Assembly: GCA_003139775.1 (NCBI GenBank)
Contig: PLGI01000127.1
Location: 1-44,774 of the forward strand
Reading direction: 5' to 3'
Source of the DNA: Syntrophaceae bacterium
Lineage (GTDB): Bacteria; Desulfobacterota; Syntrophia; Syntrophales; Smithellaceae
DNA length: 44,774 nt
In this document: positions 96 through 19,862 of the stretch, in pieces
How positions within the stretch are numbered: the first letter of the stretch is position 1
Layout of the letters: the number at the start of each line of letters is the position of its first letter
Made by a program: the position numbers and the translations under genes
Notes under the pieces: model-generated
What the model saw: only the letters and a program-made list of their open reading frames with translations
Database searches by the model: none
What the model was told of the DNA's origin: nothing

Positions 96-1307
96 TTAAT
101 CCACCTTGATGATGACCGCATCTCCCTGAGCCAATCCTCCGCAGATGCCGGCTACGCCATAGCCACCACCTCTTCTCCGAAGTTCATACATCATGGTCAT
201 GAGGATGCGTCCGCCACTGGCACCCACCGGGTGTCCGATGGCGATAGCGCCGCCATTCACGTTGGTCCTTGCCATGAGTTCTTTCCACTTTGCTTTATCC
301 CTATCGGCAAGGATTTTCGTTGACACCAGCGTAACAGCGGCGAAGGCTTCGTTGATTTCGATGAGTTTCATGTCGTCGATGGTAAGCGATGCCCGCTGAA
401 GCGCTTTTTGAATGACAAAACCCGGTAGCTCTGCCATCCGTCTCGGCTCGCTCGCGCCGCTCGCCACGGATACGATGGTGGCAAGGGGTTTTATTCCCAA
501 TGCTTCAGTCTTTGACCTCCTCATGATGATCAGGGCCGTTGCACCGGCATCGAGTCCGGGTGCGTTGCCCGCGGTAACCGTGGGACTTCCGTAGATGGTC
601 TTCAGTTTGGATAAAGCCTCCATTGTCGTATCGGGACGGGGTAATTCATCTTTATGGAATACAAAGGGTATGCCTTTTTTCTGGGGAATCTCCACCGGCA
701 CCAGCTCTTCATCAAAGTGTCCATTCTTGTCGGCCTGTGCCCATTTTTTGTGCGAGGCAACTGCCCAAGCATCCTGTTCTTCCCTGGTGATATCATACTC
801 GATGGCGATCTCACCTGCATCCTTCCCCAGGGGCGTGTATTCCCGGTAGGTGATGGGGTTCAGGTAGTCCTGGACCAGAAGCGGTTTCATGCCCGATCCC
901 CAGCGGTGTCCATTCATGAGCAGTGGTGTATTGCTCATATTCTCGGCCCCCACGGCCATGCAGGTATCAGCCTCGTTTAATAGTATGGCCCTCCGACCAA
1001 GTTGGACGGCGCAGAGAGACGAGCAGCAGGCCCTGTCGATGGTAAGAGACACCAGTGTGTCGGGAAGTCCTGCTCTCAGAAGCGCCTGACGGGCGTTAAC
1101 ATTGTCATAGAGCGCGGCCTCGGCCTGATCGCACATGCCGTAGTAGAGCTCATCAATTTCGTCACCTTTTAGCCCTGCTCTCTTGAGGCTTTCCTTCATC
1201 ACGATCACACCAAGATTCGTGCTGTGGATTTCCTTTAATGCACCGCCAAACTTACTGAATGGCGTCCTTACTCCGCTTACGATTACGATGTCGTCTCTGT
1301 TATTCAT
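96..1307 (-). CDS. Thiolase family protein (acetyl-CoA C-acetyltransferase), last gene of the operon
   Basis: Predicted to cleave acetoacetyl-CoA or 3-ketoacyl-CoA with CoA, the final step of beta-oxidation, in the cytoplasm. The protein is 403 aa, normal for the family. The nucleophile is Cys94 in the motif DRACCSSLCAV, with NEAFAA near residue 320, His359 in GHPVGASG and the C-terminal catalytic Cys389 in CGGLAQG. The ATG at 1307 was chosen over one 18 nt upstream because AAAGGAA sits 7 nt before it. It starts about 30 bp after abfD, consistent with one transcript. The usual Gly after the nucleophile is a second Cys (C-C-S-S instead of C-G-S-G). The family call is firm; chain-length preference is unknown. 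Confidence 0.9.
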   Translation of the reverse strand: MNNRDDIVIVSGVRTPFSKFGGALKEIHSTNLGVIVMKESLKRAGLKGDEIDELYYGMCDQAEAALYDNVNARQALLRAGLPDTLVSLTIDRACCSSLCAVQLGRRAILLNEADTCMAVGAENMSNTPLLMNGHRWGSGMKPLLVQDYLNPITYREYTPLGKDAGEIAIEYDITREEQDAWAVASHKKWAQADKNGHFDEELVPVEIPQKKGIPFVFHKDELPRPDTTMEALSKLKTIYGSPTVTAGNAPGLDAGATALIIMRRSKTEALGIKPLATIVSVASGASEPRRMAELPGFVIQKALQRASLTIDDMKLIEINEAFAAVTLVSTKILADRDKAKWKELMARTNVNGGAIAIGHPVGASGGRILMTMMYELRRRGGGYGVAGICGGLAQGDAVIIKVD

Positions 1308-1338
1308 TGATCTATTCCTTTCCATTGATGATTATTCC

Positions 1339-2799
1339 TTATTTATCGCCTGCATCTATACCGCAGAGCAACCTGGCGATCCTCTGTTTTTCTTTCATGT
1401 TCACAAGGCGAGCAATCATGATGCGCTGGGCCTGGGGTGATCCGGCACCATGCATAGACTCGGTGAGGTAACCCACCGCTGCCGTGCCCATGGTGATGTT
1501 TTCGATGAGTCTGAGAATGCGAAGCCTGTGCTCCGTGGAAACCCCGGATCGTGCACTGAAGTACTTCTCGACCCACTTTCCCGTCTCCGGCGATCGCAGA
1601 TCCTGCTCGGACGGGCAGGTGACCATGAGCCCCCCCGCGATATCCTGGGCGATCCGGGCTATCTCGTATGGGAAGCGGGTGATGTTCTGCTTGTGTACGT
1701 TCGCCAGCAGTACATCCACCAGATAAGTTCCGCTTTTTTCTCTATGCCCCTGGGAAGCACAAGCAATACAGCCGCAAAACAGGGTCTCGTTGAGTTGATT
1801 CATTTCAATGATCTTGTCCTTCACATGGGAGGCCCGTTCGGCGCCGTTATACTCAGCTGCTGTCTGGGTTGCCCCGATGAGCACATCACCCACCCCCACT
1901 TTGCACGCGTAGCTCTGGCGGTGGTAGGCCGCGAAGTTTTCCACGAGCTGAGTCGTGAAGTCATGCTCTTTGTACATGAACACTCGCTCCCAGGGAACGA
2001 ATACCTTTTCAAAAACTACGAGCGCCTCATGTCCGCCATAGAACATGTTGCCCCGGTCAAAGGTCATGCCTTCGAGTTTGCGTGTATCGCAGGACTGGCG
2101 GCCCATGATATAAGTGATGCCATCGGTGTCGGCGGGCAGAGCGAATGAGACGGCATAGTCACGGTCCTCTTCCCGCATGGTGATCGTGGGCATGACGATG
2201 ATCTCGTGGGAGTTTACCGCGCCGGTCTGATGGGCTTTGGCTCCGCTCACTACGATACCGTCAGCCCTCTCCTCGACGACATGAAGGTACATGTCCGGAT
2301 CCGGCTGCTGCGAAGGGGGCAGGGAGCGGTCGCCTTTGGGATCGGTCATGGCGCCGTCGCACACCAGGTCATTTTCCTGGACGTAGGCTAGATATTTCAG
2401 GAATCGCTTATTATAGTCAGTTCCGTGTTTCTCATCGATGGCATGAGTGGTAATGGATAGGGCGTTGAGGGCGTCCATGCCCACACAGCGCTGGAAACAG
2501 CAGGCCGTGAGCGAACCCATCAATCTCCCCATCTTGCTTTTTTTTACGAGGTCTTCGACGCTTTGGTGGATGTGGGTAAAACGGTTGATCTTCTGTCCCG
2601 TAATGTGCGACTTTGCGGTCAGGAGATCTTCATATTCAGGCTTGTGGGTATACTCATAGGTGGCGGCCACCGCATTCATGGAAGGCCGGATAATGGGATC
2701 GTCCACCACGTTCTCCACCCGCTTGCCGAACATATAGACCTTCAGGTTCAGCTTCCGTAAACTTTCTTCATACTGTTTTGCGTTCATCAAGTTACTCAT
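1339..2799 (-). CDS. abfD: 4-hydroxybutyryl-CoA dehydratase-like flavoprotein (AbfD family)
   Basis: AbfD dehydrates 4-hydroxybutyryl-CoA to crotonyl-CoA by a ketyl-radical mechanism using FAD and a [4Fe-4S] cluster. The 486-aa product resembles the Clostridium aminobutyricum enzyme along its length as I recall it, including VYMFGK, NRFTHIHQS, GAMTDPKGDR, GAKAHQTG, FPYEIARIAQDIAGG and the C-terminal SMHGAGSPQAQRIMIAR. The cluster ligands are present: Cys101 and Cys105 in CFQRC, His293 in YHRQSY, and Cys299. In the characterised enzyme the last two are seven residues apart; here they are six. The ATG at 2799 has GGAGG about 6 nt upstream and overlaps the end of the preceding 53-aa ORF; the ATG at 2820 lies inside that ORF without a good site. 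Beta-oxidation neighbours support the role. Substrate is inferred by homology. Confidence 0.85.
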   Translation of the reverse strand: MSNLMNAKQYEESLRKLNLKVYMFGKRVENVVDDPIIRPSMNAVAATYEYTHKPEYEDLLTAKSHITGQKINRFTHIHQSVEDLVKKSKMGRLMGSLTACCFQRCVGMDALNALSITTHAIDEKHGTDYNKRFLKYLAYVQENDLVCDGAMTDPKGDRSLPPSQQPDPDMYLHVVEERADGIVVSGAKAHQTGAVNSHEIIVMPTITMREEDRDYAVSFALPADTDGITYIMGRQSCDTRKLEGMTFDRGNMFYGGHEALVVFEKVFVPWERVFMYKEHDFTTQLVENFAAYHRQSYACKVGVGDVLIGATQTAAEYNGAERASHVKDKIIEMNQLNETLFCGCIACASQGHREKSGTYLVDVLLANVHKQNITRFPYEIARIAQDIAGGLMVTCPSEQDLRSPETGKWVEKYFSARSGVSTEHRLRILRLIENITMGTAAVGYLTESMHGAGSPQAQRIMIARLVNMKEKQRIARLLCGIDAGDK

Positions 2800-2953
2800 A
2801 TAATCCTCCAAAATCTTCATTTTCTTCCAATTCCATCATCAGGACATCGTGTTCAAGCATAAAGCCCTTTAATGTATGAGACGGATTATTGCTCATGGCC
2901 GTCAGTTTCGCTACATGTTTATCAACGGCAAGTAAAAGATATTCTTCCTTCAT
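2792..2953 (-). CDS. Small 53-aa ORF translationally coupled to abfD
   Basis: An ATG at 2953 preceded by AAGGAG at good spacing opens a 53-codon frame that ends inside the abfD start (ATGAGTAA overlap). The product begins MKEEYLLLAVDKHVAKL, is acidic toward the C-terminus, and has no Cys motif, signal peptide or membrane segment. It lies 12 bp after the patatin-like gene. I do not recognise it. The Shine-Dalgarno site and stop/start overlap favour real translation, either as a small accessory protein or as a coupling leader for abfD. Confidence 0.6.
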   Translation of the reverse strand: MKEEYLLLAVDKHVAKLTAMSNNPSHTLKGFMLEHDVLMMELEENEDFGGLYE

Positions 2954-2965
2954 ATTCCATTCTCC

Positions 2966-3835
2966 TTATTTAGTAATATGTTCCATTTGAAACAATCGGG
3001 ATTTCATGACAAACTGCGATCCCACCTGTCGGCCCATCTCGTAGTCGGCCTTCAAGAACTCAAGGCGTGACCGGATTCTTGTCGAGCGGAGTCGAAACGG
3101 TGGCGTGATCTCAAAGATACGGGCATCACCGGGCGGATTATGAATAAATTGTACGGCATCCTGATATACGCGGTGGAGCCTGCGGATCTGCGAAGAGAAC
3201 ACTGGATGTCCGCGTAGAAACAGCATGGCCAGAAGCGAGTCAATAAACCAGCCCTTTGATTGGTTCGCTGCTCTGGTGCGAATCACAACTATGCTCCGGG
3301 CACCTCGCTGGTACGCTTCCTTCACGGGTATCGGAGAAGCTACGCCGCCATCTGCGACCAGCCGTCCATCCAGTTTCACAAAACCGCGATACATTATGGG
3401 CAGAGCGCTTGATGCCAATAGCGTATCAAGGAGAGTAGCGGCATCGGGCCGTATAAACAAAGGGTTACCTGACTGTACATCCGTAATACCTACCAGAAAT
3501 TCACGTGATTTGTTGCAGACAGCCATCCTCACGTCCAGTGGATCATGGGTGGAGGAGAAGTCCCACAGCCAATCCAAGTCCATGAAGTGGCCGCCTGCAA
3601 GGAACCTTGCAAGACTGATGAATTCTTTTTTTTGCATGGGTCCGGTGCTGAGCCTGTAATATCGCTGATACTGCTCGGAGAGGTATGAGGCAAGCGATAC
3701 CGCTCCTGCCGAGATCCCGATGAAGAGATCAAAGGGATTAAATCTCTCATGCATGAACGTATCGAGCACGCCGGCAGCAAAGATGCCGCGCATCCCGCCT
3801 CCTTCGACAACCAGAGCTTTCTTGACCTCCGGCAT
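2966..3835 (-). CDS. Patatin-like phospholipase family protein
   Basis: Patatin-type serine lipid acyl hydrolases use a Ser-Asp dyad. The 289-aa protein shows the glycine-rich oxyanion loop EGGGMRG (residues 11-17), the nucleophile elbow GISAG with Ser42, and the catalytic Asp162 in ADGGVASPIPV, which makes it a probable active enzyme. There is no signal peptide, so it is likely cytoplasmic or membrane-peripheral. The ATG at 3835 has AGGTGA just upstream; a GTG 9 nt earlier is possible. It lies inside the acyl-CoA operon, 12 bp before the small ORF, so it may release fatty acids from lipids or act on an acyl-CoA. Substrate cannot be deduced. Confidence 0.85.
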   Translation of the reverse strand: MPEVKKALVVEGGGMRGIFAAGVLDTFMHERFNPFDLFIGISAGAVSLASYLSEQYQRYYRLSTGPMQKKEFISLARFLAGGHFMDLDWLWDFSSTHDPLDVRMAVCNKSREFLVGITDVQSGNPLFIRPDAATLLDTLLASSALPIMYRGFVKLDGRLVADGGVASPIPVKEAYQRGARSIVVIRTRAANQSKGWFIDSLLAMLFLRGHPVFSSQIRRLHRVYQDAVQFIHNPPGDARIFEITPPFRLRSTRIRSRLEFLKADYEMGRQVGSQFVMKSRLFQMEHITK

Positions 3836-3983
3836 TAGAATCACCTATCGAATATTATGTAATTCATACAGATCTAGTCCTTATAGATTAACTGAAGCGG
3901 AGTTAGCGGTTTCTGCCCATCTTCTCATGACTAGACACCCAATCATGCGCCAGGATGGCGATCAAGAGTGAGAGCTCGCCAAT

Positions 3984-4597
3984 TCAATATCTATACAACC
4001 CATTATCGATCTTATCCTTTATCTCAGCTGTCAGGGGCACATATCCTGATTCACCGGGCAATAAGACATAAACAGGGTCTTTGATCACACCGATATCGTA
4101 GCCTTCTTTCCGCAAGACGTCTTTCTTCAGTTTTCCGACCATGGTGGTGCTCTCGGCCTGTTTTTTGATCTCCTCGAAATTCTCCGTTAGCCAGATCCCG
4201 AAATCGCGAGCCTGACGGGCGTTCTCGAAGATGAAGACCGGGGCGCGTTGCATGGCTTCATCTTGAATCGTGGTCATGACCCCGCCGCAGAGTTTCATGA
4301 TCTTCATTCCATGGTTGCAGCTGGCAACCAACGTGCCTTCAGTGGTGGCCATGGGAACGTAGAATTCTCCCTGGGCATGTTCGCCATTCACCAGCAAAGG
4401 CCCGGCAATTCCGATAGGCACCTGGGCATAATACCGATAAAGCTTTCAATATTGCCCTTGAGCACGGAGGGGTCGAAGGAACGGCGGCCGACATGATTCA
4501 TGGCCTTACCGATTTTTTCCTTCATAAAGTCATGGCGGTCAGCGATTGCCTCCTGAGTATAGTCATCTTTCAAACGAGGGATTTTGTCTTCCGTTAT
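3984..4597 (-). pseudogene. Chimeric remnant: HMG-CoA reductase 5' part joined to acyl-CoA ligase 3' end, frameshifted
   Basis: The first part reads as class I/archaeal-type HMG-CoA reductase (VPIGIAGPLLVNGE, then MATTEGTLVAS with the catalytic Glu), but needs a frame change near 4430-4436, consistent with one lost base. Around 4130-4155 (residues AESTT then MVGKLKKDVLR) the similarity switches to the A10 lysine motif of AMP-forming acyl-CoA ligases, followed by a ligase-like tail ending DNGLYRY. All reductase residues after AESTT are missing. The expected start position, just after AAAGGAGT, reads ATA. The simplest reading is a deletion that fused two former neighbours at similar short sequences. 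It lies about 17 bp after the intact ligase. A sequencing error could explain the frameshift but not the fusion. Confidence 0.75.
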
Positions 4598-4613: not shown

Positions 4614-6440
4614 TTATTCATTATAAAGCGCATTAAGTTTTTCCCCGTATTTCTTCATGACTAACGGCCGCTTGAGCTTCATCGTCTGGGTCAGCATACC
4701 GCTTTCCACTGTGAAGTCTTCAGCGATGAAAAGGAACTTCTGCGGCACTTCGTAGCCGCCATAAATCTTTCGCAGGTGAACAATAATATCTTTGGACAGA
4801 TAATCCTGCAAATCTTTGTTCTTCAGGGATTCTTCCAATGTGTCTTTCATAAACGCTTTGGTGTTCGCATCGGCTTGCAGTGCGGCAAAGTCGGGAACAA
4901 CAAGAGCCACGTTGTAGTCTTTGCCGTCGCCGTAAAGCAGCACGTTGAGGATGTAGCGGATCAATTTAATTTCATTTTCAATGCCTTCCGGATGGACATA
5001 CTTGCCGTTGGCCAGCTTGTATTCGTCCTTGAAGCGGCCGGTAATATGCAGGTAGCCTTCTTCATCAAGCCAGCCGCGGTCGCCGGTGTGGATGCCGGGA
5101 AAACCGTTCCATTTATCCGGCATCATGATTTCCGCTGTTTGCTTTGGCTTATTGTGGTACCCCATCATGACATGAGCACCATATGCGCATATTTCGCCGT
5201 CCTTGCTGTTTTCTCCAACACGGGATTTATCAATCACCACGTGCATGTTTTTAACCACCTTGCCGACAGTTCCCAATTTGTTGCCGTACTTGGGGGTATT
5301 GGAGGTAATGACCGGTCCTGTTTCCGTCATGCCGTAGCCATCGTAGGTCGGTTGACCGATATCTTGGAAGAACATAGCGATTTCCGGTTTGACCATTGCA
5401 CTGCCGGTGACGAAGAATTTCAGAGCCCCACCGAAAACATTGCGAACCTGGGAAAAAACCAGCGCATCGTAATCGTTAAACTCTTTTGTTTTCTCCGTAA
5501 GATCTCTGTTTTTGATTGCTTCGGCGACGGCCGCGTCAAAAAACATCTTTTTAGTAGGATCGGCGGCAACCCCCACCTGAATCGTGTCATAAACCTTGTT
5601 GACAATTTTGGGAACAACGCAGAGCCCTGTGGGTTTGACTTCCTGGAAGTTCTGAATCAGCTTTTCCACGGATTCGGCGAAAGCAATGCCGCCGCCTGCA
5701 ACGATGTAAAGGTGCAGGTCAGTGGCCAGGCCATAGACATGCGCCCAGGGAAGAATGGCCACTATATGCATGGTTTCATTTATACCGAATGAGTCTAACC
5801 CGAGACGCCCGTTTAAAGTAAGACTCCCGTGAGAGAGTTCAACGCCTTTCGGATCGCCGGTTGTACCGGAGGTATAGACGATGTTGGCCATATCCGACCA
5901 GGCGGGTTTGATGGACGGCGCGGAGTTTTTCTTGCCCATTTCCTCCAGGGCGTTCATGGAATTCTCGCCTTCACCGTAAATGACAAATATTTCTTTCAAG
6001 GTGGGAACATCTTTTTTGAAATCCTTGATTTTTTCATAAATGCTTTTATCGCGGGCAAACAGAAACTTCATTCCGGCGTCGGTGCAGATGTACTTCATGA
6101 CTTTTGGAAGTTCCTGCAGGTACATGGGAACAAAAACACCGCCAAGACCATGAACAGCCTGCTCGCAGATAAACCATTCAGTGCAATTATTGAGAATGAC
6201 GCCGACGGTCTCGCCTTTTGACAAGCCAAGTTTTTTCAAGGCACTCCGGAGGTTATCAACCCTGTCGGCTACCTGCTTGTAGGTCACCCATTCATACTGT
6301 CCTGAAGTCTGATTCTTCGTACCAAAAAGTCTGTTGTCTGGCCAATGCTTCACGCTGGACTCAAAGAGATCTACAAGGTTATTTGGGCTGGTGTAATACT
6401 TGTCTAATTCCTTGATTTGTGCTGCCGATAGGTCTTTCAT
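4614..6440 (-). CDS. Long-chain-type acyl-CoA synthetase (AMP-forming ligase)
   Basis: Activates a carboxylic acid to its CoA thioester through an acyl-adenylate. The 608-aa protein carries the ATP-binding motif YTSGTTGDPKG (about residue 189), the A5 motif YGMTETGP (about 369), the A7/A8 region HTGDRGWLDEEGYLHITGR, and a C-terminal lysine motif TQTMKLKR. Length fits long-chain FadD-type synthetases, but chain length cannot be read from sequence. Of two in-frame ATGs, the one at 6440 was chosen because GAGGAG lies 6 nt upstream; the ATG at 6446 abuts that site. It is the only intact ligase in the operon and could supply 4-hydroxybutyryl-CoA or butyryl-CoA. A 127-bp gap separates it from the acyl-CoA dehydrogenase. 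Confidence 0.88.
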   Translation of the reverse strand: MKDLSAAQIKELDKYYTSPNNLVDLFESSVKHWPDNRLFGTKNQTSGQYEWVTYKQVADRVDNLRSALKKLGLSKGETVGVILNNCTEWFICEQAVHGLGGVFVPMYLQELPKVMKYICTDAGMKFLFARDKSIYEKIKDFKKDVPTLKEIFVIYGEGENSMNALEEMGKKNSAPSIKPAWSDMANIVYTSGTTGDPKGVELSHGSLTLNGRLGLDSFGINETMHIVAILPWAHVYGLATDLHLYIVAGGGIAFAESVEKLIQNFQEVKPTGLCVVPKIVNKVYDTIQVGVAADPTKKMFFDAAVAEAIKNRDLTEKTKEFNDYDALVFSQVRNVFGGALKFFVTGSAMVKPEIAMFFQDIGQPTYDGYGMTETGPVITSNTPKYGNKLGTVGKVVKNMHVVIDKSRVGENSKDGEICAYGAHVMMGYHNKPKQTAEIMMPDKWNGFPGIHTGDRGWLDEEGYLHITGRFKDEYKLANGKYVHPEGIENEIKLIRYILNVLLYGDGKDYNVALVVPDFAALQADANTKAFMKDTLEESLKNKDLQDYLSKDIIVHLRKIYGGYEVPQKFLFIAEDFTVESGMLTQTMKLKRPLVMKKYGEKLNALYNE

Positions 6441-6567
6441 GTTCATCTCCTCATTTTATATGCTCATTTGTCTTTCCAGGAATGCTGGATAGTGCAGGGC
6501 TTTTTCCTCCGGTCGAGTATGTGCCCTAGTCTTTCAACACATCATTTCTCACCAGGCAGCTCCTATG

Positions 6568-8424
6568 CTATCTGAAACAGGTCTCGTCCACATCAGCCAG
6601 CGAGAATTCCTCGTTGCTCAGGGCTATAACCTTGCCCTGGATGACGGGGAGAACCCGCGAGATAAAAAATTGCGCCGAGTGGATTTTGCCGCTATAGAAC
6701 GCCGCCTCTGTATCACTGATCACAAGACTGCGGCGCTGCTCATTATCTCGAGCTCCTTTCTCTTCAAAAAGTTTATTAAGCCGCTCGTTTGCTATAATCG
6801 CCTGCCACAGGTGCATCCAGCCGAGCAGCATATCCCCCACGATCTCCATCAGGGGGGTGGCACCCATGAATGCATCATGAACCCGACCGGCTTGAATCTG
6901 AGAGGTGAGATGGGAAACTGCATCGAGCATCTGTTTACGGGCCATCTTGACTGCTGAGGCACTTTTTTTCAAAGTCGGCACGTCGGCTGCGGCCTCGATA
7001 GTCTTGTCGATTTCTGCTATTAGGTGTTTCAGTACCTCTCCCCTGGACATGGAAATCTTCCGGGAAAGCAGGTCAATGGCCTGGATGCCGTTGGTTCCCT
7101 CGTAGATGGCCGTAATCCGGCAGTCGCGAGTGAACTGTTCCACCGGGTAGTCCTGGCAGTATCCGTATCCGCCGAATACCTGGATGGCCGCATTACATAC
7201 CTGAAATCCCATATCACTCGTGTATGCCTTGCAGACGGGCGTCAGAAATTCAATCAGACCATACAACTTCTTTTGTTCCTGTTCGTCAGCAGTGGAATTG
7301 CGCCTGTCTATACAAAAAGCGGTATAATAGTTCAGAGCCCTGAGTCCCTCCACATAAGCTTTCATCCAAAGGAGCGACCTGCGAATATCCGGATGAGCAA
7401 TGATAGGAACCGGTTTTGCCGCAGCCCCCTTCTGTGTAATGTCTGTCCCCTGGATGCGCTCCTTTGCGTAATCCCTTGCATTCAAGTATGCCGTACCGGC
7501 AAGGCCCTGGGCCTGCATGGCCACAACGAGCCGCTCCTCGTTCATCATGTAGAACATGGCTTGGATACCCTTGCATCGATCTCCGAGCAGTTCACCGATG
7601 CATTCGCCGGAATCACCAAAGATAAGCGAACAGGTTGCAGCACCCCGAATGCCCATTTTGTGCTCAATGCCTGAGCAGTAAACGTCGTTGGACTTGTCCA
7701 GTGAACCGTCATGGCTCACGAGATGCTTGGGAACGATGAAGAGAGAAATTCCCTTGATCCCTGCGGGATCGCCGTCCAATCTGGCCAGCACGGCATGGAT
7801 GATATTGGGCTTGCCGTCATGATCCCCTGCGGTGATGAAACATTTCTGGCCTGTGATCCGGTAATACCGGTCATCGATCTTTTCCGCTCGGGTGATGATC
7901 CGGGCAAGATCGCTCCCGGCGCCGGGTTCGGTGAGGCACATGGTTCCTCCCCATTCAAAACCAAGGAGCTTTTCCAGATAGAGGTTCTTCTGCTCCTCTG
8001 TGCCAAAGAGCTTAATTAGCAGGGCCGTGCCGTGGGTAAGGGTCATATACTGGCTCATGGCCATGTTCCCGGCCACAAAGGCCTCGTACGCTGCAGTAAA
8101 CAGGGTAAGCGGCAATCCCTGTCCGCCGACCTCCGGCTCTTCAACGGACGCCACCCATCCCTGCTCTGCATATTGCTGCAAGGGTCCGTGGAAAGATGGC
8201 GGCAGGGTGACCTTCCCCTCTTTCCACTGGGCTCCGATGCGGTCGCCGTCAACGTTAGTGGGAGCCAGGTCGTTCTGGGCAAACTTCACCGCCTGATCCA
8301 AAACCATGTCGAATTCCTGCTTCGAAAAATGGCTGTATTTTCCCGATGTGGTCAGCGTTGTAATGCCGAGTTGCTCATAGAGCACGAAATCCATGTCCCT
8401 TCTATCTACTATACTGCTTGCCAT
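6568..8424 (-). CDS. Acyl-CoA dehydrogenase, large form with extra C-terminal domain
   Basis: Oxidises an acyl-CoA to the 2-enoyl-CoA with FAD. At 618 aa it is about 220 residues longer than ordinary acyl-CoA dehydrogenases and matches the FadE5/DmdC-like class with an added C-terminal helical domain. It shows CLTEPGAGSDL (about 163), QVFGGYGYCQDYPVEQ (415-430) and the predicted catalytic base Glu442 in YEGTNGIQA. The C-terminal domain spans roughly 460-600. The ATG follows GTAGGAG with 7-nt spacing; the upstream crotonase stop lies within that site, so the two are translationally close (10 bp). Electrons would go to ETF, which is not encoded here. Acyl chain preference is unknown. Confidence 0.9.
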   Translation of the reverse strand: MASSIVDRRDMDFVLYEQLGITTLTTSGKYSHFSKQEFDMVLDQAVKFAQNDLAPTNVDGDRIGAQWKEGKVTLPPSFHGPLQQYAEQGWVASVEEPEVGGQGLPLTLFTAAYEAFVAGNMAMSQYMTLTHGTALLIKLFGTEEQKNLYLEKLLGFEWGGTMCLTEPGAGSDLARIITRAEKIDDRYYRITGQKCFITAGDHDGKPNIIHAVLARLDGDPAGIKGISLFIVPKHLVSHDGSLDKSNDVYCSGIEHKMGIRGAATCSLIFGDSGECIGELLGDRCKGIQAMFYMMNEERLVVAMQAQGLAGTAYLNARDYAKERIQGTDITQKGAAAKPVPIIAHPDIRRSLLWMKAYVEGLRALNYYTAFCIDRRNSTADEQEQKKLYGLIEFLTPVCKAYTSDMGFQVCNAAIQVFGGYGYCQDYPVEQFTRDCRITAIYEGTNGIQAIDLLSRKISMSRGEVLKHLIAEIDKTIEAAADVPTLKKSASAVKMARKQMLDAVSHLTSQIQAGRVHDAFMGATPLMEIVGDMLLGWMHLWQAIIANERLNKLFEEKGARDNEQRRSLVISDTEAAFYSGKIHSAQFFISRVLPVIQGKVIALSNEEFSLADVDETCFR

Positions 8425-8434
8425 TTATTATCTC

Positions 8435-9229
8435 CTACTTATCTTTGAATTTAGGTACGCGTTTTTCCAGGAAGGCTGCTGCGCCCTCTTTCTTGTCCTC
8501 ACTCGCGTAACATATGCCGAACATCTCGCGTTCAAGTTTCATTCCCGTGTGAAGATCCATGGCCGATCCTTCGCCGACGGCCCGGATAGCGGCTCCAACA
8601 GCGATACGGCTTTTTGATGATATGGCTTCGGCAAGTTTCATGGCCTCTTCCACGACAGTCCCTTTGGGAACTGCCCGGTTAATCATTCCGTATGCTTCAG
8701 CCTGCTTGCCGTTGACAAAATTTCCCGACAGGATGAGTTCAAGAGCCCGGGCCCTGCCGATGAGGCGCGGTGTCCTTTGGGTGCCACCGTAGCCCGGGAT
8801 GATGCCGAGCTTGATTTCCGGCAATCCCAGAGTGGCAGTCTCGTCGGCCAGTCTGATATGGCAAGCCAGAGCCATCTCCATGCCACCGCCAAGGCAGAAG
8901 CCGTTGATGGCAGCAATGATGGGCTTGTCCGCATGCATCATAAGGTTGGAGAGCTCCTGGCCATTGATGAGAGACTCCGCCCCTTCTCTGGCGGTTGTAA
9001 AGTCGTTCAACTCGCCAATATCCGCTCCCGCAATAAATGCCTTTCCTGCACCGGTAAAAACTATGACCCGCACTTCTTCGTTATGAATGGCCGCAAGCAG
9101 TGTGTCCCGAATCTCATCCAACACACTCCAACTGAGCGCATTCATGGGCGGGTTATTGATCTCCATGAGGGCTACACCTGTGCTATTTACGATGTATGTA
9201 TACCGCGACCCTTCATTGACTTTTTTCAT
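8435..9229 (-). CDS. Enoyl-CoA hydratase (crotonase family)
   Basis: Hydrates 2-enoyl-CoA, for example crotonyl-CoA, to the 3-hydroxyacyl-CoA. The 264-aa protein has the oxyanion-hole segments AFIAGADI (64-71) and GFCLGGGMEMA (110-120), and both catalytic glutamates of hydratases, Glu118 and Glu138 in LPEIKLGIIPGYGGTQR. Keeping both argues for a true hydratase rather than an isomerase. GGAGG lies 7 nt before the ATG. It sits between the AbfD paralogue (59 bp upstream) and the acyl-CoA dehydrogenase (10 bp downstream). In a 4-hydroxybutyrate route it would act directly after the dehydratase. Confidence 0.92.
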   Translation of the reverse strand: MKKVNEGSRYTYIVNSTGVALMEINNPPMNALSWSVLDEIRDTLLAAIHNEEVRVIVFTGAGKAFIAGADIGELNDFTTAREGAESLINGQELSNLMMHADKPIIAAINGFCLGGGMEMALACHIRLADETATLGLPEIKLGIIPGYGGTQRTPRLIGRARALELILSGNFVNGKQAEAYGMINRAVPKGTVVEEAMKLAEAISSKSRIAVGAAIRAVGEGSAMDLHTGMKLEREMFGICYASEDKKEGAAAFLEKRVPKFKDK

Positions 9230-9288: not shown

Positions 9289-10746
9289 TCACTTGCCATC
9301 GATCCCCTGCCAAGGGATAATTCCGGCTTTACGCCTTGCCATCTCCTCATACCTGCTGAGTGGAGATTCTGCCAGGATCATCATCTTCTGTGCCTCCATG
9401 GAGCCTTCCGCATGCACGGTGATTACCTCGTGGAAGGCAGACTCATGGGAGCAAGTCTGGCGCATGGTCTCATGGATCATCTTCATACGTTCCTCCGTAC
9501 TAAACTTTGCCGAACCACCCAGGTAGTGTTCCAGATAGTCATGGAGGTCCGGGTGGTCCCAGTCCTTCTTGTCCGGCGCCGTACCGATGATGCCTCCACC
9601 AATATCCTGGATGAGTTCGATGAAAGAGTGATATTTGCTGGCGAAGTGGAGCTTGGCCATGTTGGCTATTAGCGGGTTTGGAACCGCGATATCGCCGTAC
9701 ATGACAGGGTCGAAGGCCGCTGCATTGGTCAGGGCGCGGAGCGTCTCCACATAGGCCGCGATATCGGCAAGCTTATTGCGTATGTGCCCGACCTTTTCCA
9801 GCCCGTTGTATTTAGCCATGGCCACGGCGCATCCCGCTGCGGTCTCCACCAAAGGGATCTTATAGCTGATGGCCGTGAAGCGGTGGAAGGTCGCGAAGGT
9901 GTATGCGAGCAGCATGGAGTGCTGCCACTCGCCGCACATGAAGACCCTCTCCCAAGGAACGAATACATTGTCGAAGATAATAATAGCCTCGGTCAGGGTC
10001 TTGATGGGATTGTCCGGATGGAAGTCATGTTCAGTCCAGGCTCCCCTTCCGCCACGGCAGATAAAGGTCACCCCTTTGGTATTCGCCGGTATAGCGAAGC
10101 TTACCGCATACTCCGATTCGTTTTCCCGCATCTGACGGGTAGGGATGACCACTATCTCGTTTACGATGGGTCCGCTCGTGATATGCGCCTTGGCGCCCTT
10201 GACGATAATGCCTTCTTTGTTCTTGTCCACCACATGAACATAGTAGTCCGGGTGCTTCTGGTTCGCCGGTTCTTTCGACCGATCACCTTTCACATCGGTA
10301 ACGGCACCGCAGGTAAAAAGATCGTTCGTTCTCAGATATTCCAGGAAATTGGCGGCATTGTCCTGATATTCTTTCTTGCCCATCTTGCCGGCCACAACAA
10401 AAGCGGCGTTGAGGCAATCCGTACCGATATCGCGTCCGAAAGGCAGGTCTCCCAGAATCTCTATGGAGCGCCGGATCATCTTGGAGCGGTTGGCAAGATC
10501 TTCTTTTGTGTGTGGCGTTATATAGAAACGGCTGATAGGTTCACCCGTAACCGGATGGGGTGCTACATAGAGATCCCGCACAGTAGGGTCTTTGGAGGCG
10601 CACAGCTCATAGGCGCCTCCCACGGTGTCACAGGTTGGGCCTAGCACCGGGTGGGCAGTGACATCCTCCACCTTTTCGCCCATGATGTACACGTGTCTGC
10701 CGTCACGCAGGCTTTCTTTATATTCGTCTACGGTTCGGATGGCCAT
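9289..10746 (-). CDS. HpaB/AbfD-family flavoprotein lacking the [4Fe-4S] cysteines
   Basis: The 485-aa protein belongs to the 4-hydroxyphenylacetate 3-hydroxylase / 4-hydroxybutyryl-CoA dehydratase family, seen in AVTDVKGDR (148-156), GAKAHITSGP (184-193) and IIFDNVFVPWERVFM (256-270). Aligned by eye with AbfD, the three cluster cysteines are replaced: Pro102 and Asp106 in PFGRD, and Tyr295 in FHRFTAISY; only the ligand His288 is kept. It is therefore unlikely to bind a [4Fe-4S] cluster like AbfD. No HpaC-type reductase is nearby and the context looks anaerobic, so oxygenase activity is doubtful. It may be a flavin-dependent acyl-CoA isomerase or dehydratase, or a structural partner of AbfD. 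GAGGAGG precedes the ATG by 7 nt. Confidence 0.82.
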   Translation of the reverse strand: MAIRTVDEYKESLRDGRHVYIMGEKVEDVTAHPVLGPTCDTVGGAYELCASKDPTVRDLYVAPHPVTGEPISRFYITPHTKEDLANRSKMIRRSIEILGDLPFGRDIGTDCLNAAFVVAGKMGKKEYQDNAANFLEYLRTNDLFTCGAVTDVKGDRSKEPANQKHPDYYVHVVDKNKEGIIVKGAKAHITSGPIVNEIVVIPTRQMRENESEYAVSFAIPANTKGVTFICRGGRGAWTEHDFHPDNPIKTLTEAIIIFDNVFVPWERVFMCGEWQHSMLLAYTFATFHRFTAISYKIPLVETAAGCAVAMAKYNGLEKVGHIRNKLADIAAYVETLRALTNAAAFDPVMYGDIAVPNPLIANMAKLHFASKYHSFIELIQDIGGGIIGTAPDKKDWDHPDLHDYLEHYLGGSAKFSTEERMKMIHETMRQTCSHESAFHEVITVHAEGSMEAQKMMILAESPLSRYEEMARRKAGIIPWQGIDGK

Positions 10747-10804: not shown

Positions 10805-11311
10805 TCATTGCGCTTTTATAGACTTTTTCTTAGCCAGTGACTCCAGTATCTTCACTATGCCCAGAATTCCTGCAATAAACAGCGCGCCACCGACGACTTC
10901 AACCCCCATCCATGAAAATACGTTGGGGTCCGGGGCCTTCGCTGCTACTGCAGCCACCAGGAAATACATAAAGGTGTAATTGTTGAATAAAACAGGAACG
11001 ACCTCTCCCAAGGCCACAATGGCATAAACAAAAACGAGTACATACAGCAGTTTCGCCAGTTCCAGCCCTAGAGATGGCGCTGCAGCCTCTAGGAAGATTT
11101 TGATAATGATCAAATTGGCAATTCCGAAGAGCCCTCCTACAAGGATGTTAGGGGCCTTTTTCATATCCATATGCGCCTCAAAGAAAAAGATCATAACCAT
11201 GAAAGCCGGCCATGTCGCGAGTTTGAAGTGGGCAAGAATGATCTCTCCCAACGCAATCAGGACAATCAGCAATACGCCGAAAATAAGTCTGTCTTTACTC
11301 AGTTTAGCCAT
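10805..11311 (-). CDS. Small integral membrane protein, unknown function
   Basis: A 168-aa hydrophobic protein with about five predicted membrane segments (roughly residues 9-28, 31-48, 55-75, 83-120 in one or two spans, and 133-156), a short charged N-terminus MAKLSKDR and a lysine-rich C-terminus AKKKSIKAQ. No signal peptide or known motif was recognised. AAGGAGG lies at ideal spacing before the ATG. It is the second gene of the acyl-CoA operon, 49 bp after the hydroxyacyl-CoA dehydrogenase and 58 bp before the AbfD paralogue. It could be a substrate permease or a membrane anchor for an electron-transfer step; nothing in the sequence decides this. Confidence 0.8.
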   Translation of the reverse strand: MAKLSKDRLIFGVLLIVLIALGEIILAHFKLATWPAFMVMIFFFEAHMDMKKAPNILVGGLFGIANLIIIKIFLEAAAPSLGLELAKLLYVLVFVYAIVALGEVVPVLFNNYTFMYFLVAAVAAKAPDPNVFSWMGVEVVGGALFIAGILGIVKILESLAKKKSIKAQ

Positions 11312-11360: not shown

Positions 11361-12224
11361 TCATTTCTTCCCGTAATGATAAAAGCCGTTGCCCGTTTTA
11401 CGGCCATAGTCCCCCCGTGCATACCGCTCAACAATGCTGGGACTCGGCCTGTCAGCGGGGTTTTGGGTTTCCTGAAATCTTTCTATGGTAACAAGATATT
11501 CCAAGTCGATTCCTGTCATATCCAGAAGCTGGAATGGGCCCATGGGATGTCCAAGCCCGTTGCGAGCGGCATTGTCGATATCTTCGATGGATGCAATACC
11601 GAGATCCAAAAGAGAGCAGGCTTCCCGAGTAATTGCGCTGAACATGCGATTACAGATAAAACCGTAAATCTCTTTATTCACCTTTGTCGGTGATTTACCC
11701 AGCGTGCGGCTTACTTTCATGACCGTATCGACTGTCTCGGCAGACACATGGGGACCACGTACAACCTCTATCAGTTTCATTACCAGAGCAGGATTAAAGA
11801 AGTGCATATTGAGCACTTTATCCTGACGTTTTGTGGCATCCGCTATTTTAGAACTGACGATATATGAACTGTTTGTGGCCAGAATTGTATGGGGCGGACA
11901 TATTTTATCAAGCTGCCGGAAAAGGGATCTTTTGGCCTCCAGAATTTCAATGATGGCTTCGATAATCAGATCAGAATCTTTTGCCGCAATTGTGAGATCT
12001 TCGGTAAAACAAAGACGTTTGTGAATATCATCAACTTCCGATGCCTGCAGCTTTCCTTTTTCTACGCGATCACTCAGCCATTTACCGGCAAAATCCTGGG
12101 CATTTTTCAAAACAGCTGCTATGCTGTCGGTACAATATACTTTGAAGCCTGACAGAGCGCACTGAAGAGCAATCTGCCTCCCCATATTGCCTGCCCCTAC
12201 GACACCGATTGTTTTGATTTCCAT
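11361..12224 (-). CDS. 3-hydroxyacyl-CoA dehydrogenase (3-hydroxybutyryl-CoA dehydrogenase type)
   Basis: Oxidises 3-hydroxyacyl-CoA to 3-ketoacyl-CoA with NAD(P)+. The 287-aa length is that of the single-domain enzymes. The Rossmann loop is GAGNMG (10-15), the catalytic His141 lies in MHFFNPALVMKLIEVV with Glu153, and the C-terminal domain shows NRMFSAITREACSLLDLG and GLGHPMGPFQLLDMTG. It is the first gene of the minus-strand operon; a -24/-12 promoter lies about 90 bp upstream. A weak AGGAT precedes the ATG, with GGAG slightly farther back. It would supply acetoacetyl-CoA to the operon thiolase. Confidence 0.93.
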   Translation of the reverse strand: MEIKTIGVVGAGNMGRQIALQCALSGFKVYCTDSIAAVLKNAQDFAGKWLSDRVEKGKLQASEVDDIHKRLCFTEDLTIAAKDSDLIIEAIIEILEAKRSLFRQLDKICPPHTILATNSSYIVSSKIADATKRQDKVLNMHFFNPALVMKLIEVVRGPHVSAETVDTVMKVSRTLGKSPTKVNKEIYGFICNRMFSAITREACSLLDLGIASIEDIDNAARNGLGHPMGPFQLLDMTGIDLEYLVTIERFQETQNPADRPSPSIVERYARGDYGRKTGNGFYHYGKK

Positions 12225-12310
12225 ATCCTGTTTGCTCCTTCGACTTTTTTGTATTGCTCATCGCAGGAGAGATGCTCCTTGATGATGAATGATTTTTCAC
12301 TGTTTTTACT

Positions 12311-12325
12311 TCAATAGTTGTGCCA
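12311..12325 (-). promoter_or_regulatory. Sigma-54 (-24/-12) promoter of the acyl-CoA operon
   Basis: On the minus strand TGGCAC-N5-TTGA reads toward the 3-hydroxyacyl-CoA dehydrogenase gene. The distance between the GG and the G of the -12 element is the 10 nt expected for sigma-54; only the final C of TTGC is changed to A. Transcription would start near 12299, leaving about 75 nt of leader. The divergent neighbour encodes a sigma-54 activator, which supports the call. Confidence 0.72.
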
Positions 12326-12430
12326 CGAAGGTATGCATTGAAGAATTAAAAATAATAACAAGTAATAATAATATGATGTGTCTATTCATCTTGGAATTGC
12401 CACTTGGAAAAGAAATATTGCTATCCCGGC

Positions 12431-12450
12431 GTGATTCATATATGAATTAT
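12431..12450. promoter_or_regulatory. Degenerate third operator copy
   Basis: GTGATT-N8-AATTAT contains the palindrome ATTCATATATGAAT (12434-12447) and has the same 6-8-6 geometry as the two better copies downstream. It is centred about 140 bp upstream of the predicted sigma-54 start site. It may be a weak activator site or chance AT-rich symmetry. Confidence 0.4.
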
Positions 12451-12461
12451 TGGTACTGTTT

Positions 12462-12481
12462 TTGATCAATTTATGGATCAA
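12462..12481. promoter_or_regulatory. Candidate activator-binding inverted repeat 1
   Basis: TTGATC-N8-GATCAA is a perfect inverted repeat that extends one more base each side. It lies about 170 bp upstream of the predicted sigma-54 start site, a usual distance for enhancer sites, and shares its form with the copy 28 bp further on. Likely ligand: the Fis-type HTH of the divergent activator (inference). Confidence 0.6.
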
Positions 12482-12489
12482 ATATGATT

Positions 12490-12509
12490 TTGATTTATTT
12501 TTGAATCAA
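12490..12509. promoter_or_regulatory. Candidate activator-binding inverted repeat 2
   Basis: TTGATT-N8-AATCAA has the same arm length and spacer as repeat 1, differing mainly at the inner arm base. It ends 64 bp before the activator start codon, so it may also serve autoregulation. Confidence 0.6.
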
Positions 12510-12573
12510 CTTAGAATAGGCATAATAAAAAATATTTGTGCTGATACATCATTTTTTGTCGGGGGTGTATATT

Positions 12574-14736
12574 ATGGATGATCTTAAAGCGGCTCATTTT
12601 CTGGATCAGTTAAATAACCTCTTGATTGAAACAAAAACATTGAAAATGAATGAAAAGGTCAGCGATTTTATGCGACCTCATCCCATCGTCATAAAGAGCA
12701 CCGCGACTTTGAAGGATGCGATTGAAATAATAATCAATAACAGGATAGATGGTGTTCCCGTTGTCGACGAGGAGAACATGATGGTGGGCCTCGTTACAAA
12801 AACCCTAGCCTTGAGGGAAATCAATAGAAGCAACGATCTCCAACAGAACATCAGCAAAATCATGAAAACGGATCCTATCGTGACGGAGCCTGACGAAGAC
12901 ATATCAACTCTGATCACCGTCAATGTCGGATGCCTTCCTGTTGTTACTGATAGAAAGGTCGTGGGTATGGTTACCCTGTCCGACACAGTCAGAGCCTATT
13001 TCAGCTCAATCATAAATCTGAAGGAAGAACTGGATACGGTCATCAATTCCGCTTATAACGGCATCATTACCATCGATACCGATGGGAATGTCCGTCTTAT
13101 CAATTCGGCAGCTGAAAAAACCCTGGGCATGCTGAAAAAAGATGTTTTGGGATGCCCCCTGTCCCAGATATTGCCTGATTCCAATCTGTACGACGTCGTG
13201 CGCAGCGGCAAAACCGATTTTGGACAAAAAATAAATTTTGGAGACAAGATCCTGGTTACGAACAAAAGTCCTCTTGCACATAAGGATAACATTATCGGCG
13301 CCGTTGCCGTCTTTCAGGATATTTCCGATTTCGAGCTGATATCGGAAGAATTGCATTATACGAAAAGTCTGAAAGAAGAACTGGCAACCATTATAGAGTC
13401 GTCTTTTGACGGCATTTATCTTACGGACAGCTCCGGAAGAATTCTGCGTGTCAACGAAGCCTTTACACGAATAACCGGCATAGGAAGCGAAGAGCTTCTC
13501 AACAAAACCGTTGACGAGCTTGTCGAAAGGGGCGTCTTTAAGCATACCATACCTCTTGAGGCTTTGGCGGATGGCAGACCTGTAACCATTTCACAGGAAG
13601 TAAGAACCGGAAAAACCATATTAGTGACAAGTAATCCGATCATGGATGCGGACGGACACATTTCACGCATCGTTCATAATGCACGGGACATAACGGAACT
13701 AAATAATCTCAAGAATAAACTGGAACAGGCGGAAAGTCTGAGCCAGCATTACCGGGAGCAGCTGAATAAAATAAAAATATCAAATAAATACATTACAAAG
13801 GCACAGAGCTCCAAAGCATTGATTGAACTTGTCATGCGGCTCAGTGCTGTAGATACGACGGTCCTCATCACGGGTGAATCCGGGGTTGGTAAAGAAATCA
13901 TCGCGGAGATTCTGCACGAGAACAGCGATCGGCGTGATAAATTAATGGTCACCGTCAATTGTGCCGCCATACCGGAAAACCTCCTGGAATCGGAACTTTT
14001 TGGATACGAAGCCGGAGCGTTTACAGGTGCCAGCAGGAAAGGCAAAATCGGCACCTTCGAATTGGCCAACGGGGGAACAATCTTTCTGGATGAAATAAGT
14101 GAATTGCCCTTGAATCTGCAATCAAAGCTTCTGAGGGCTCTCCAGCAAAAAGTAATCACCCGCTTGGGAGGCAATAAACCGTTAAAAGTTGATGTAAGAA
14201 TCATTGCCGCTACAAATCAAAACCTGCTGGACATGGTGTCGAGAAAGGAATTTCGGAATGACCTGTTCTACAGACTCAATGTCATTCCTATTAAAATACT
14301 GCCTTTAAGAGACAGGAAAGAGGAAATTCCCGATTTAGTTTCTCATTTCACGAAGCTGTTCAACAAGAAGTACAAGCTCAATAAACGATTAGATGAAATG
14401 GCCGTCTATGATCTTATGCAATATAACTGGCCGGGTAATATTCGAGAATTACAAAATATGATAGAACGAAATATGATCACTTCTGAAAAAGATGTGATCA
14501 AAAGCTTGGACTTCGGGGAGGACAAACCCGATAGATACCGGACGGACACGGCGTTCAAGGAACCCCTATCGGCATTGAAATTAAAAACAGCCGTGGAAAA
14601 CATGGAAAGAGACATCATTCAGGAAGCGCTGCACCATCATGGCACATCAAGAAAAGCGGCTTTTGCCTTAGGCATAAGCCAGCCAACAATCGTCCGGAAG
14701 GCTTCAAAATACAAGATCAAGATAAAAGCATGTTAA
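12574..14736 (+). CDS. Sigma-54-dependent transcriptional activator with CBS pair and two PAS domains
   Basis: A 720-aa enhancer-binding protein. Order: tandem CBS domains (about 27-148; DFMRPHPIVI and GCLPVVTDRKVVGMVTLSD), PAS1 (150-255), PAS2 (268-375; FDGIYLTDSSGRILRVNEAF), a short linker, the AAA+ domain with Walker A GESGVGKE (434-441), the sigma-54 contact motif GAFTGA (481-486) and Walker B GTIFLDEI, and a C-terminal Fis-type HTH (TSRKAAFALGISQPTIVRK). CBS pairs often bind adenine nucleotides and PAS domains bind small ligands or redox cofactors, so it may read energy state and a metabolite; this is inference. The ATG at 12574 follows GGGGGTG; a GTG 36 nt upstream lacks a good site. 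Divergence from the acyl-CoA operon makes that operon its likely target. Confidence 0.92.
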   Translation: MDDLKAAHFLDQLNNLLIETKTLKMNEKVSDFMRPHPIVIKSTATLKDAIEIIINNRIDGVPVVDEENMMVGLVTKTLALREINRSNDLQQNISKIMKTDPIVTEPDEDISTLITVNVGCLPVVTDRKVVGMVTLSDTVRAYFSSIINLKEELDTVINSAYNGIITIDTDGNVRLINSAAEKTLGMLKKDVLGCPLSQILPDSNLYDVVRSGKTDFGQKINFGDKILVTNKSPLAHKDNIIGAVAVFQDISDFELISEELHYTKSLKEELATIIESSFDGIYLTDSSGRILRVNEAFTRITGIGSEELLNKTVDELVERGVFKHTIPLEALADGRPVTISQEVRTGKTILVTSNPIMDADGHISRIVHNARDITELNNLKNKLEQAESLSQHYREQLNKIKISNKYITKAQSSKALIELVMRLSAVDTTVLITGESGVGKEIIAEILHENSDRRDKLMVTVNCAAIPENLLESELFGYEAGAFTGASRKGKIGTFELANGGTIFLDEISELPLNLQSKLLRALQQKVITRLGGNKPLKVDVRIIAATNQNLLDMVSRKEFRNDLFYRLNVIPIKILPLRDRKEEIPDLVSHFTKLFNKKYKLNKRLDEMAVYDLMQYNWPGNIRELQNMIERNMITSEKDVIKSLDFGEDKPDRYRTDTAFKEPLSALKLKTAVENMERDIIQEALHHHGTSRKAAFALGISQPTIVRKASKYKIKIKAC

Positions 14737-19325: not shown

Positions 19326-19862
19326 ATGGATTGGGTGAAATACATATTAGAATTTTTAAAAGTGGTTAAAGCGGGCGTTGCTGGTGAAAGTGATTTGCCA
19401 GCTATACTTCTTGGTATAGTGGTTGCCTATCTGACGATCCTTATCTCAGTAGCGATTGCAATTTTTAGTGAGAAAAAAGAATTTGAGGCATTAGACAGAA
19501 ATGTCATATTGGATCACATCATAAGAGCCAAAAGGCTCTTGTTATATTTGGTTTTCACATTCTTCCCTCTTTTATTCTGGAATGGCTCACTACCGTGGAC
19601 CAGAATATTGGAGATACTTTCTTGGATTATTGGTATAGTTCTTATGACCAAGATTTTAATTAACTCCTATCACTGGATGAAAGGAAATAAGTTTCGATTG
19701 AGGTTTGATTATTTGAGAGACTTACAAGATAAGCAAGATATGGAAGAAGCATGGCGGTCTGTATGGCAAACTGAGAACATCAATTTTAAGAATGAACAAG
19801 AATTCTTTAGTATATTCCATTCTACTGTGAATCAATTATTGGAAAACAATGAAAAAAGATAA
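19326..19862 (+). CDS. Hypothetical membrane protein (AT-rich accessory gene)
   Basis: A 178-aa protein with three predicted membrane segments (about 26-46, 70-88, 96-112) and a charged cytoplasmic C-terminal half (KFRLRFDYLRDLQDKQDMEEAWRSVWQ...). No recognised domain. Its codons and flanks are much more AT-rich than the pur genes before it, suggesting horizontal acquisition. The last 14 nt overlap the next gene, so the two form a coupled pair. No clear Shine-Dalgarno site precedes the ATG. A two-gene accessory system (membrane subunit plus cytoplasmic subunit) is possible but unproven. Confidence 0.7.
   Translation: MDWVKYILEFLKVVKAGVAGESDLPAILLGIVVAYLTILISVAIAIFSEKKEFEALDRNVILDHIIRAKRLLLYLVFTFFPLLFWNGSLPWTRILEILSWIIGIVLMTKILINSYHWMKGNKFRLRFDYLRDLQDKQDMEEAWRSVWQTENINFKNEQEFFSIFHSTVNQLLENNEKR

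Follow-up and report, generated by a model that had tools for sequence, protein, structure and literature searches.

A predicted sigma-54 control region linking a divergent enhancer-binding protein to an acyl-CoA operon in a Syntrophaceae bacterium

The question raised by this locus is how a cluster of acyl-CoA genes might be switched on in a bacterium of the Syntrophaceae. In the analyzed window (the whole 44,774-nucleotide contig PLGI01000127.1), a gene cluster on the minus strand and a gene for an enhancer-binding protein (EBP) on the plus strand diverge from a gap of 349 bases (12225-12573) (Table 1). This shared control region is very likely a dedicated sigma-54 circuit in which the divergent EBP would activate the acyl-CoA operon from three upstream palindromes. 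The elements of the circuit, their improbability, their conservation in an ortholog locus (L035) and the correspondence between operator and recognition helix were computed; binding, looping, the signal and regulation itself we infer.

Table 1. Predicted features of the control region, the EBP gene and the minus-strand gene cluster
Feature	Position	Strand	Remarks
Sigma-54-type -24/-12 promoter, TGGCAC-AACTA-TTGA	12325 down to 12311	-	Predicted +1 at 12299
Predicted 5' leader of operon	12225..12299	-	GAAGGAG before ATG 12224; start inferred
Operator 1, TTGATTTATTTTTGAATCAA	12490..12509		0 mismatches to KTGATT-N8-AATCAM; centre 174.5 bp before TGG; farthest upstream
Operator 2, TTGATCAATTTATGGATCAA	12462..12481		2 mismatches to KTGATT-N8-AATCAM; centre 146.5 bp before TGG
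Operator 3 (weaker), GTGATTCATATATGAATTAT	12431..12450		2 mismatches; centre 115.5 bp before TGG
Possible sigma-70-type promoter of EBP gene, TTGATT-16-TAGAAT	12490..12517	+	Overlaps operator 1
EBP, CBS-CBS-PAS-PAS-AAA+(GAFTGA)-HTH_50	12574..14736	+	ATG 12574 behind GGGGGTG
3-hydroxyacyl-CoA dehydrogenase, first operon gene	11361..12224	-	ATG 12224
168-aa hydrophobic protein	10805..11311	-	No family above threshold
HpaB/vinylacetyl-CoA-isomerase-type protein	9289..10746	-	Lacks the two Cys residues of the iron-sulphur site in AbfD
Enoyl-CoA hydratase	8435..9229	-	
618-aa acyl-CoA dehydrogenase	6568..8424	-	
AMP-forming acyl-CoA ligase	4614..6446	-	
Further co-directional genes	96..4421	-	Transcript membership uncertain
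HMG-CoA reductase fragment	3984-4421	-	Matches only profile positions 43-140 of 368, as a gene fragment would
Patatin-like	2966-3844	-	
AbfD-type 4-hydroxybutyryl-CoA dehydratase	1339-2820	-	CFQRC and HRQSYAC present
Thiolase	96-1325	-	

The element TGGCAC-N5-TTGA, which a sequence-only reading had described as facing the acyl-CoA operon, is indeed present on the minus strand and shows one mismatch to TGGCAYN5TTGC. The -24 element fits TGGCAY, and the -12 element keeps G-13 and has A in place of the consensus C-12; an identical TTGA is found in L035. Taking TGG as -26/-25/-24 gives the same sequence-predicted transcription start as that reading. Matches with at most one mismatch on either strand appear in 128 of 3000 dinucleotide shuffles of 12225-12549; not being rare by chance, the promoter match on its own is weaker evidence. 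No IHF-like site (at most one mismatch) lies between operator 3 and the promoter in either the window or L035.

The divergent gene encodes a sigma-54 EBP, as had been proposed, with its activity predicted from the domain content. The AAA+ sigma-54 interaction domain is clearly recognizable (PF00158, E=5e-69) and its GAFTGA motif is read directly; the N-terminal part consists of two CBS and two PAS stretches, and the C-terminus is a TyrR-type HTH (HTH_50, E=5.5e-13). As the start, ATG 12574 with its upstream GGGGGTG is preferred over GTG 12538 of the open reading frame list. Relatives of this EBP within the same genome show at most 52% identity over part of the length, and rpoN is represented by one PF04552 match (215 bits).

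All three palindromes are where they had been described, that is, TTGATC-N8-GATCAA and TTGATT-N8-AATCAA 28 bp apart and a weaker third copy about 31 bp away (start-to-start spacings of 28 and 31 bp). The description of these repeats as phased applies to one interval but not to the other: at 10.5 bp per turn, 31 bp corresponds to 2.95 turns and 28 bp to 2.67 turns, so that only the former is near a whole number. Among 5000 shuffles of the 325-bp stretch 12225-12549 with dinucleotides kept, two exact TTGAT-N10-ATCAA sites at a distance of 20-45 bp never appeared together, a pair at up to two mismatches to KTGATT-N8-AATCAM appeared in 26, and a triple at up to two mismatches in none; these single-region figures are optimistic because the motif was picked after looking, and the ortholog L035 is a more independent test. 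Among spacers from 0 to 20, exact TTGAT/ATCAA pairs in the gap come from N10 only.

The genome of the window (3.4 Mb) has 14 single TTGAT-N10-ATCAA sites, versus 2 for the reversed control, and within it the exact tandem TGAT-N10-ATCA (gap 1-16) is confined to the window (control 0). At up to two mismatches, single sites are found at 1084 places (418 for the reversed control), which is too common to be of use for a regulon search; the EBP may have a weaker second target in this genome. In a phylum-wide sample of 395 genomes, the exact tandem pattern matched 26, counting that of the window, and many of these matches are, judged by eye, coding-like stretches; the reversed control, whose composition is different, gave 0 among the genomes listed.

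A search for the EBP in 155 genomes of the order (E<=1e-160, up to 7 candidates scored per genome) matched the window and one other locus, L035 (57% identity, residues 11-730); no second ortholog was found at this threshold among the 154 other genomes. In L035, the promoter reads TGGCAT-GTAAA-TTGA and has three operators upstream, their centres 179.5, 149.5 and 118.5 bp from TGG, with 1, 3 (the middle one) and 1 mismatches, the last being the copy that matches operator 3. In 5000 shuffles of this region, neither the triple nor the triple in register with the promoter was ever seen; 95 shuffles contained the promoter at up to one mismatch. When the two regions are aligned, the longest identical runs (about 10 and 8) fall in operators 2 and 1, the promoter contains two of length 5, and another, of length 6, is outside these elements. 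In the search for repeat pairs suggested in the sequence-only reading, the exact tandem was found in the window alone within its own genome, and L035 carries the KTGATT triple but no exact TTGAT-N10-ATCAA site. The L035 contig runs out 168 bp past the promoter start, which puts the gene driven by this promoter out of view, and a search with the last 26 bases for a continuation of this contig returned only the contig itself. The expectation that the repeats would be conserved upstream of orthologous operons found no support, as searches of the order's 155 genomes with the HpaB-like and acyl-CoA dehydrogenase queries turned up no orthologous operon. By these comparisons, conservation apparently extends to the regulator and its control region and does not take in the target operon.

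The EBP resembles those of four Bacillota loci (L059, L060, L061 and L066) and of one locus from the same order (L165), with 41-45% identity, in the operator consensus, the recognition helix SQ[PS]xxV[KR][KR] common to these loci, and the -24/-12 promoter. The differences are that the CBS part lies outside the aligned region and that the sites are located near -59, with a pair or a single copy near -162/-142. Specifically, seven -24/-12 promoters in these five loci have a KTGATT-type palindrome (up to three mismatches) near -59 from TGG. A pair near -162/-142 is present at both promoters of L060 and in L066, the pair in L059 (11917) is at -148/-128, and at the remaining promoters one or both copies of the pair are weak. 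The genes next to the seven promoters encode three URO-D family proteins, a pterin-binding protein, RACo (corrinoid activation), an MFS transporter and a periplasmic binding protein.

Across 41 EBP loci, KTGATT-type sites upstream of -24/-12 promoters were detected in 7 of the 8 loci with the SQ[PS]xxV[KR][KR] helix versus 0 of the 33 others; these counts are descriptive because the layouts had already been seen when the looser rule and the class of helix were defined, and both groups include close relatives. Counted per promoter, the -59 site and the upstream pair each occur in 7 of 23 cases for this helix type versus 0 of 69 for the others. One of the pairs, at 19412 on the plus strand of the window, consists of weak sites inside a reading frame, looks like chance and is therefore discounted, leaving 6 of the 7. 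The helix could be read in 32 of the 33 other loci and is of another type in all of them (the contig of L172 stops before the HTH), with the near-variant helices of L074, L075 and L078 (SQST..RL) counted among the others. The single locus with the helix type and no sites, L085, sits on a long branch. Under a stricter earlier rule for pairs (up to two mismatches), 3 of the 41 loci pass, namely the window, L059 and L060, and L035 fails; permuted half-sites give a mean of 0.15 of 41 under this rule, and near-variants of the motif up to 3. At L075 (7671, plus strand), where the EBP has the helix SQSTCARL, TTGAGTCATGATTGAGTCAA and CTGATTCAATAGTGAGTCAG are found upstream of CGGCAT-N5-TTGC; these sites are perhaps a related operator variant.

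Several alternative explanations of the palindromes have to be weighed against this evidence. They could mainly repress or autoregulate the EBP's own gene, with the divergent operon driven by another promoter. A sigma-70-like match that faces the EBP gene does overlap operator 1, but it is no better than chance (1 found versus a mean of 2.1 in shuffles), L035 preserves the spacing of the operators from the divergent -24/-12 element to within 5 bp, and the sites in the Bacillota relatives and L165 precede -24/-12 promoters that are located 3' of the EBP gene and face other genes. Such a role is accordingly unlikely.

The FNR half-site is TTGAT and the FNR box is TTGAT-N4-ATCAA. The half-site letters here are the same, and the palindromes could serve another regulator, for example one of the FNR/CRP type, with an incidental -24/-12 match. 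The spacer, however, is N10, and TTGAT-N4-ATCAA is absent from both the gap and the L035 region even at one mismatch; moreover, the operator tracks the type of the EBP recognition helix across loci, which makes a regulator of this kind quite improbable. Least probable of all is a chance assemblage of palindromes and a degenerate promoter in an AT-rich intergenic stretch: the region has 30% G+C and single sites at up to two mismatches are common, but the shuffle statistics for the pair and the triple, the single tandem occurrence in the genome and the conservation in L035 all speak against it. Given these statistics, the conservation in L035 and the association with the recognition helix, the palindromes are very probably enhancer sites of the divergent EBP. 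They form several copies located 100-250 bp upstream (centres at 115-175 bp) and are conserved with the EBP, both in L035 and in the helix type. Of the regulatory circuit outlined in the sequence-only reading, the sigma-54 promoter, the enhancer sites and the cognate EBP are supported by motif statistics, L035 and the helix association; strict helical phasing is not.

The phylogenetic tree of the EBPs recovers the window and L035 as a supported pair (100/100), and the Bacillota-type EBPs together with L165 as another group (100/100) which includes an L066-L165 pair (100/96); the tree leaves the relation between the window/L035 pair and the Bacillota-type group unsettled. The sister EBPs of L165 (1514, minus strand; the window's order) and L066 (10026, plus strand; a contig of an uncultured Desulfosporosinus) share the -59 operator and the -24/-12 layout, suggesting a transfer between phyla. 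A more general scenario is somewhat less likely than not: EBPs with the SQ[PS]xxV[KR][KR] helix would read KTGATT-N8-AATCAM as a transferable module, in the window's phylum as in Bacillota, the EBP travelling between phyla with its -24/-12 architecture and being re-aimed from mostly URO-D, pterin-binding and corrinoid-activation genes (5 of 7) toward the degradation of acyl-CoA, and CBS domains would have been acquired to sense energy status.

Another CBS-PAS EBP is encoded in a locus from the same genus (L069, 535-7208), where it is followed by a permease-like gene, an AbfD-type dehydratase (65% identity to that of the window) and a CoA-transferase-like gene, the permease and transferase names being given by eye. 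This EBP has a different helix (DRATVFRK), and there is no KTGATT pair at this locus. A TCGCAT-N2-ATGCGA palindrome is present at the end of the EBP gene; it was not found at the same spacing in L162 or L163.

By predicted functions, the putative target operon is a beta-oxidation-like gene set. The intergenic gaps are 10-59 bases among the first five genes and 121 bases before the ligase gene; the place of the genes at 96-4421 in the transcript is uncertain because gaps of 139-192 bases precede three of the four. Two HpaB-fold genes are present in the same cluster, one with CFQRC (1339-2820) and the other with PFGRD (9289-10746). The Cys residues of AbfD are ligands of a 4Fe-4S site. Identification of the second of these genes as AbfD was rejected, as it has PFGRD where 6vjr has CFQRC. 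Its product is probably an enzyme distinct from AbfD because it is without the AbfD Cys motif and yet is 75-81% conserved in 13 genomes, in other neighborhoods.

At a threshold of 1e-120, the HpaB-like protein is found in 18 of the 155 genomes (own included), with 13 others at 75-81% and 4 at 45-48% identity. Neighborhoods were examined in 16 of the 17 other genomes (G101 and a second place in G103 were left out). In none of the 13 genomes, some with short contigs, was an acyl-CoA dehydrogenase, a hydroxyacyl-CoA dehydrogenase or the EBP found beside the HpaB-like gene at 1e-10; an enoyl-CoA hydratase-like match (33-47%) is nearby in 3 of them, and a hydroxyacyl-CoA dehydrogenase (34-37%) in 2 of the 3 remaining examined genomes. 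The acyl-CoA dehydrogenase has matches at 1e-180 in 73 of the 155 genomes (own included), the best other identity among the matches listed being 50%. Within G018, the genome of L035, the best match to the hydroxyacyl-CoA dehydrogenase (52%) lies well inside a 37-kb contig.

EBPs act as dimers and then as a ring. In the proposed circuit, EBP dimers would bind the three KTGATT-N8-AATCAM palindromes, 115-175 bp upstream, through the C-terminal TyrR/Fis-type HTH, and a cytoplasmic signal at the CBS/PAS part would lead the EBP to assemble its AAA+ ring. With the intervening DNA looped, hydrolysis of ATP would act through the GAFTGA loop to open the complex of sigma-54 RNA polymerase at TGGCAC-N5-TTGA. 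Transcription from near 12299 would then cover the genes for the 3-hydroxyacyl-CoA dehydrogenase, the membrane protein, the HpaB-like protein, the enoyl-CoA hydratase, the acyl-CoA dehydrogenase and the ligase. With operator 1 positioned a short way upstream of the EBP gene, self-limitation of the EBP through this operator is plausible. Our guesses at the inducer are an adenylate-type ligand, from the CBS pair, and an acyl-CoA or acid, from the operon. CBS domains respond to adenosyl ligands (PMC11887813), and the mechanism of EBPs at sigma-54 promoters is established (PMC6615313).

Comparable systems are described in the text of a Clostridiales reconstruction, which distinguishes 39 EBP groups and assigns one target operon to 170 of 263 EBPs; the target is usually the neighboring operon, the sites are mostly 100-250 bp upstream, and the targets include butyrate and acyl-CoA genes such as hbd, crt, bcd and abfD (PMC6615313). 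The window circuit resembles the CrbR, AhcR, XcgR, YctR and XanR regulons described there in having a neighboring acyl-CoA target and sites upstream of a -24/-12 promoter, and differs in that two CBS domains precede PAS; CBS is listed in that text with no group given (PMC6615313). The operator TGT-N10-12-ACA, reported for 15 of the groups, with CrbR, AhcR, XcgR and PrdR among its users, was considered and rejected, as the arms here are TTGAT.../...ATCAA; on the text descriptions by which the groups were compared, KTGATT-N8-AATCAM may match another Clostridiales group, e.g., YctR or XanR (PMC6615313). In classes of Bacillota, a survey reports that acyl-CoA dehydrogenases, 3-hydroxyacyl-CoA dehydrogenases and COG2368 are controlled by sigma-54 (PMC12316311). 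The sigma-54 regulome of Desulfovibrio vulgaris similarly comprises many EBP regulons in a deltaproteobacterium and includes one predicted EBP site that is palindromic and AT-rich; none of the words CBS, TTGAT and TGATT appears in its main text (PMC4641369). A literature search by title and abstract found no paper on this operator or regulator.

Altogether, the window circuit is a well-supported but ordinary instance of a known sigma-54 switch, with one target found, and it leaves the existing picture of sigma-54 regulation unchanged. It provides a concrete, testable assignment of regulator, operator and promoter for an acyl-CoA degradation cluster, and a pair of recognition helix and operator that is usable for predicting the targets of related activators in two phyla.
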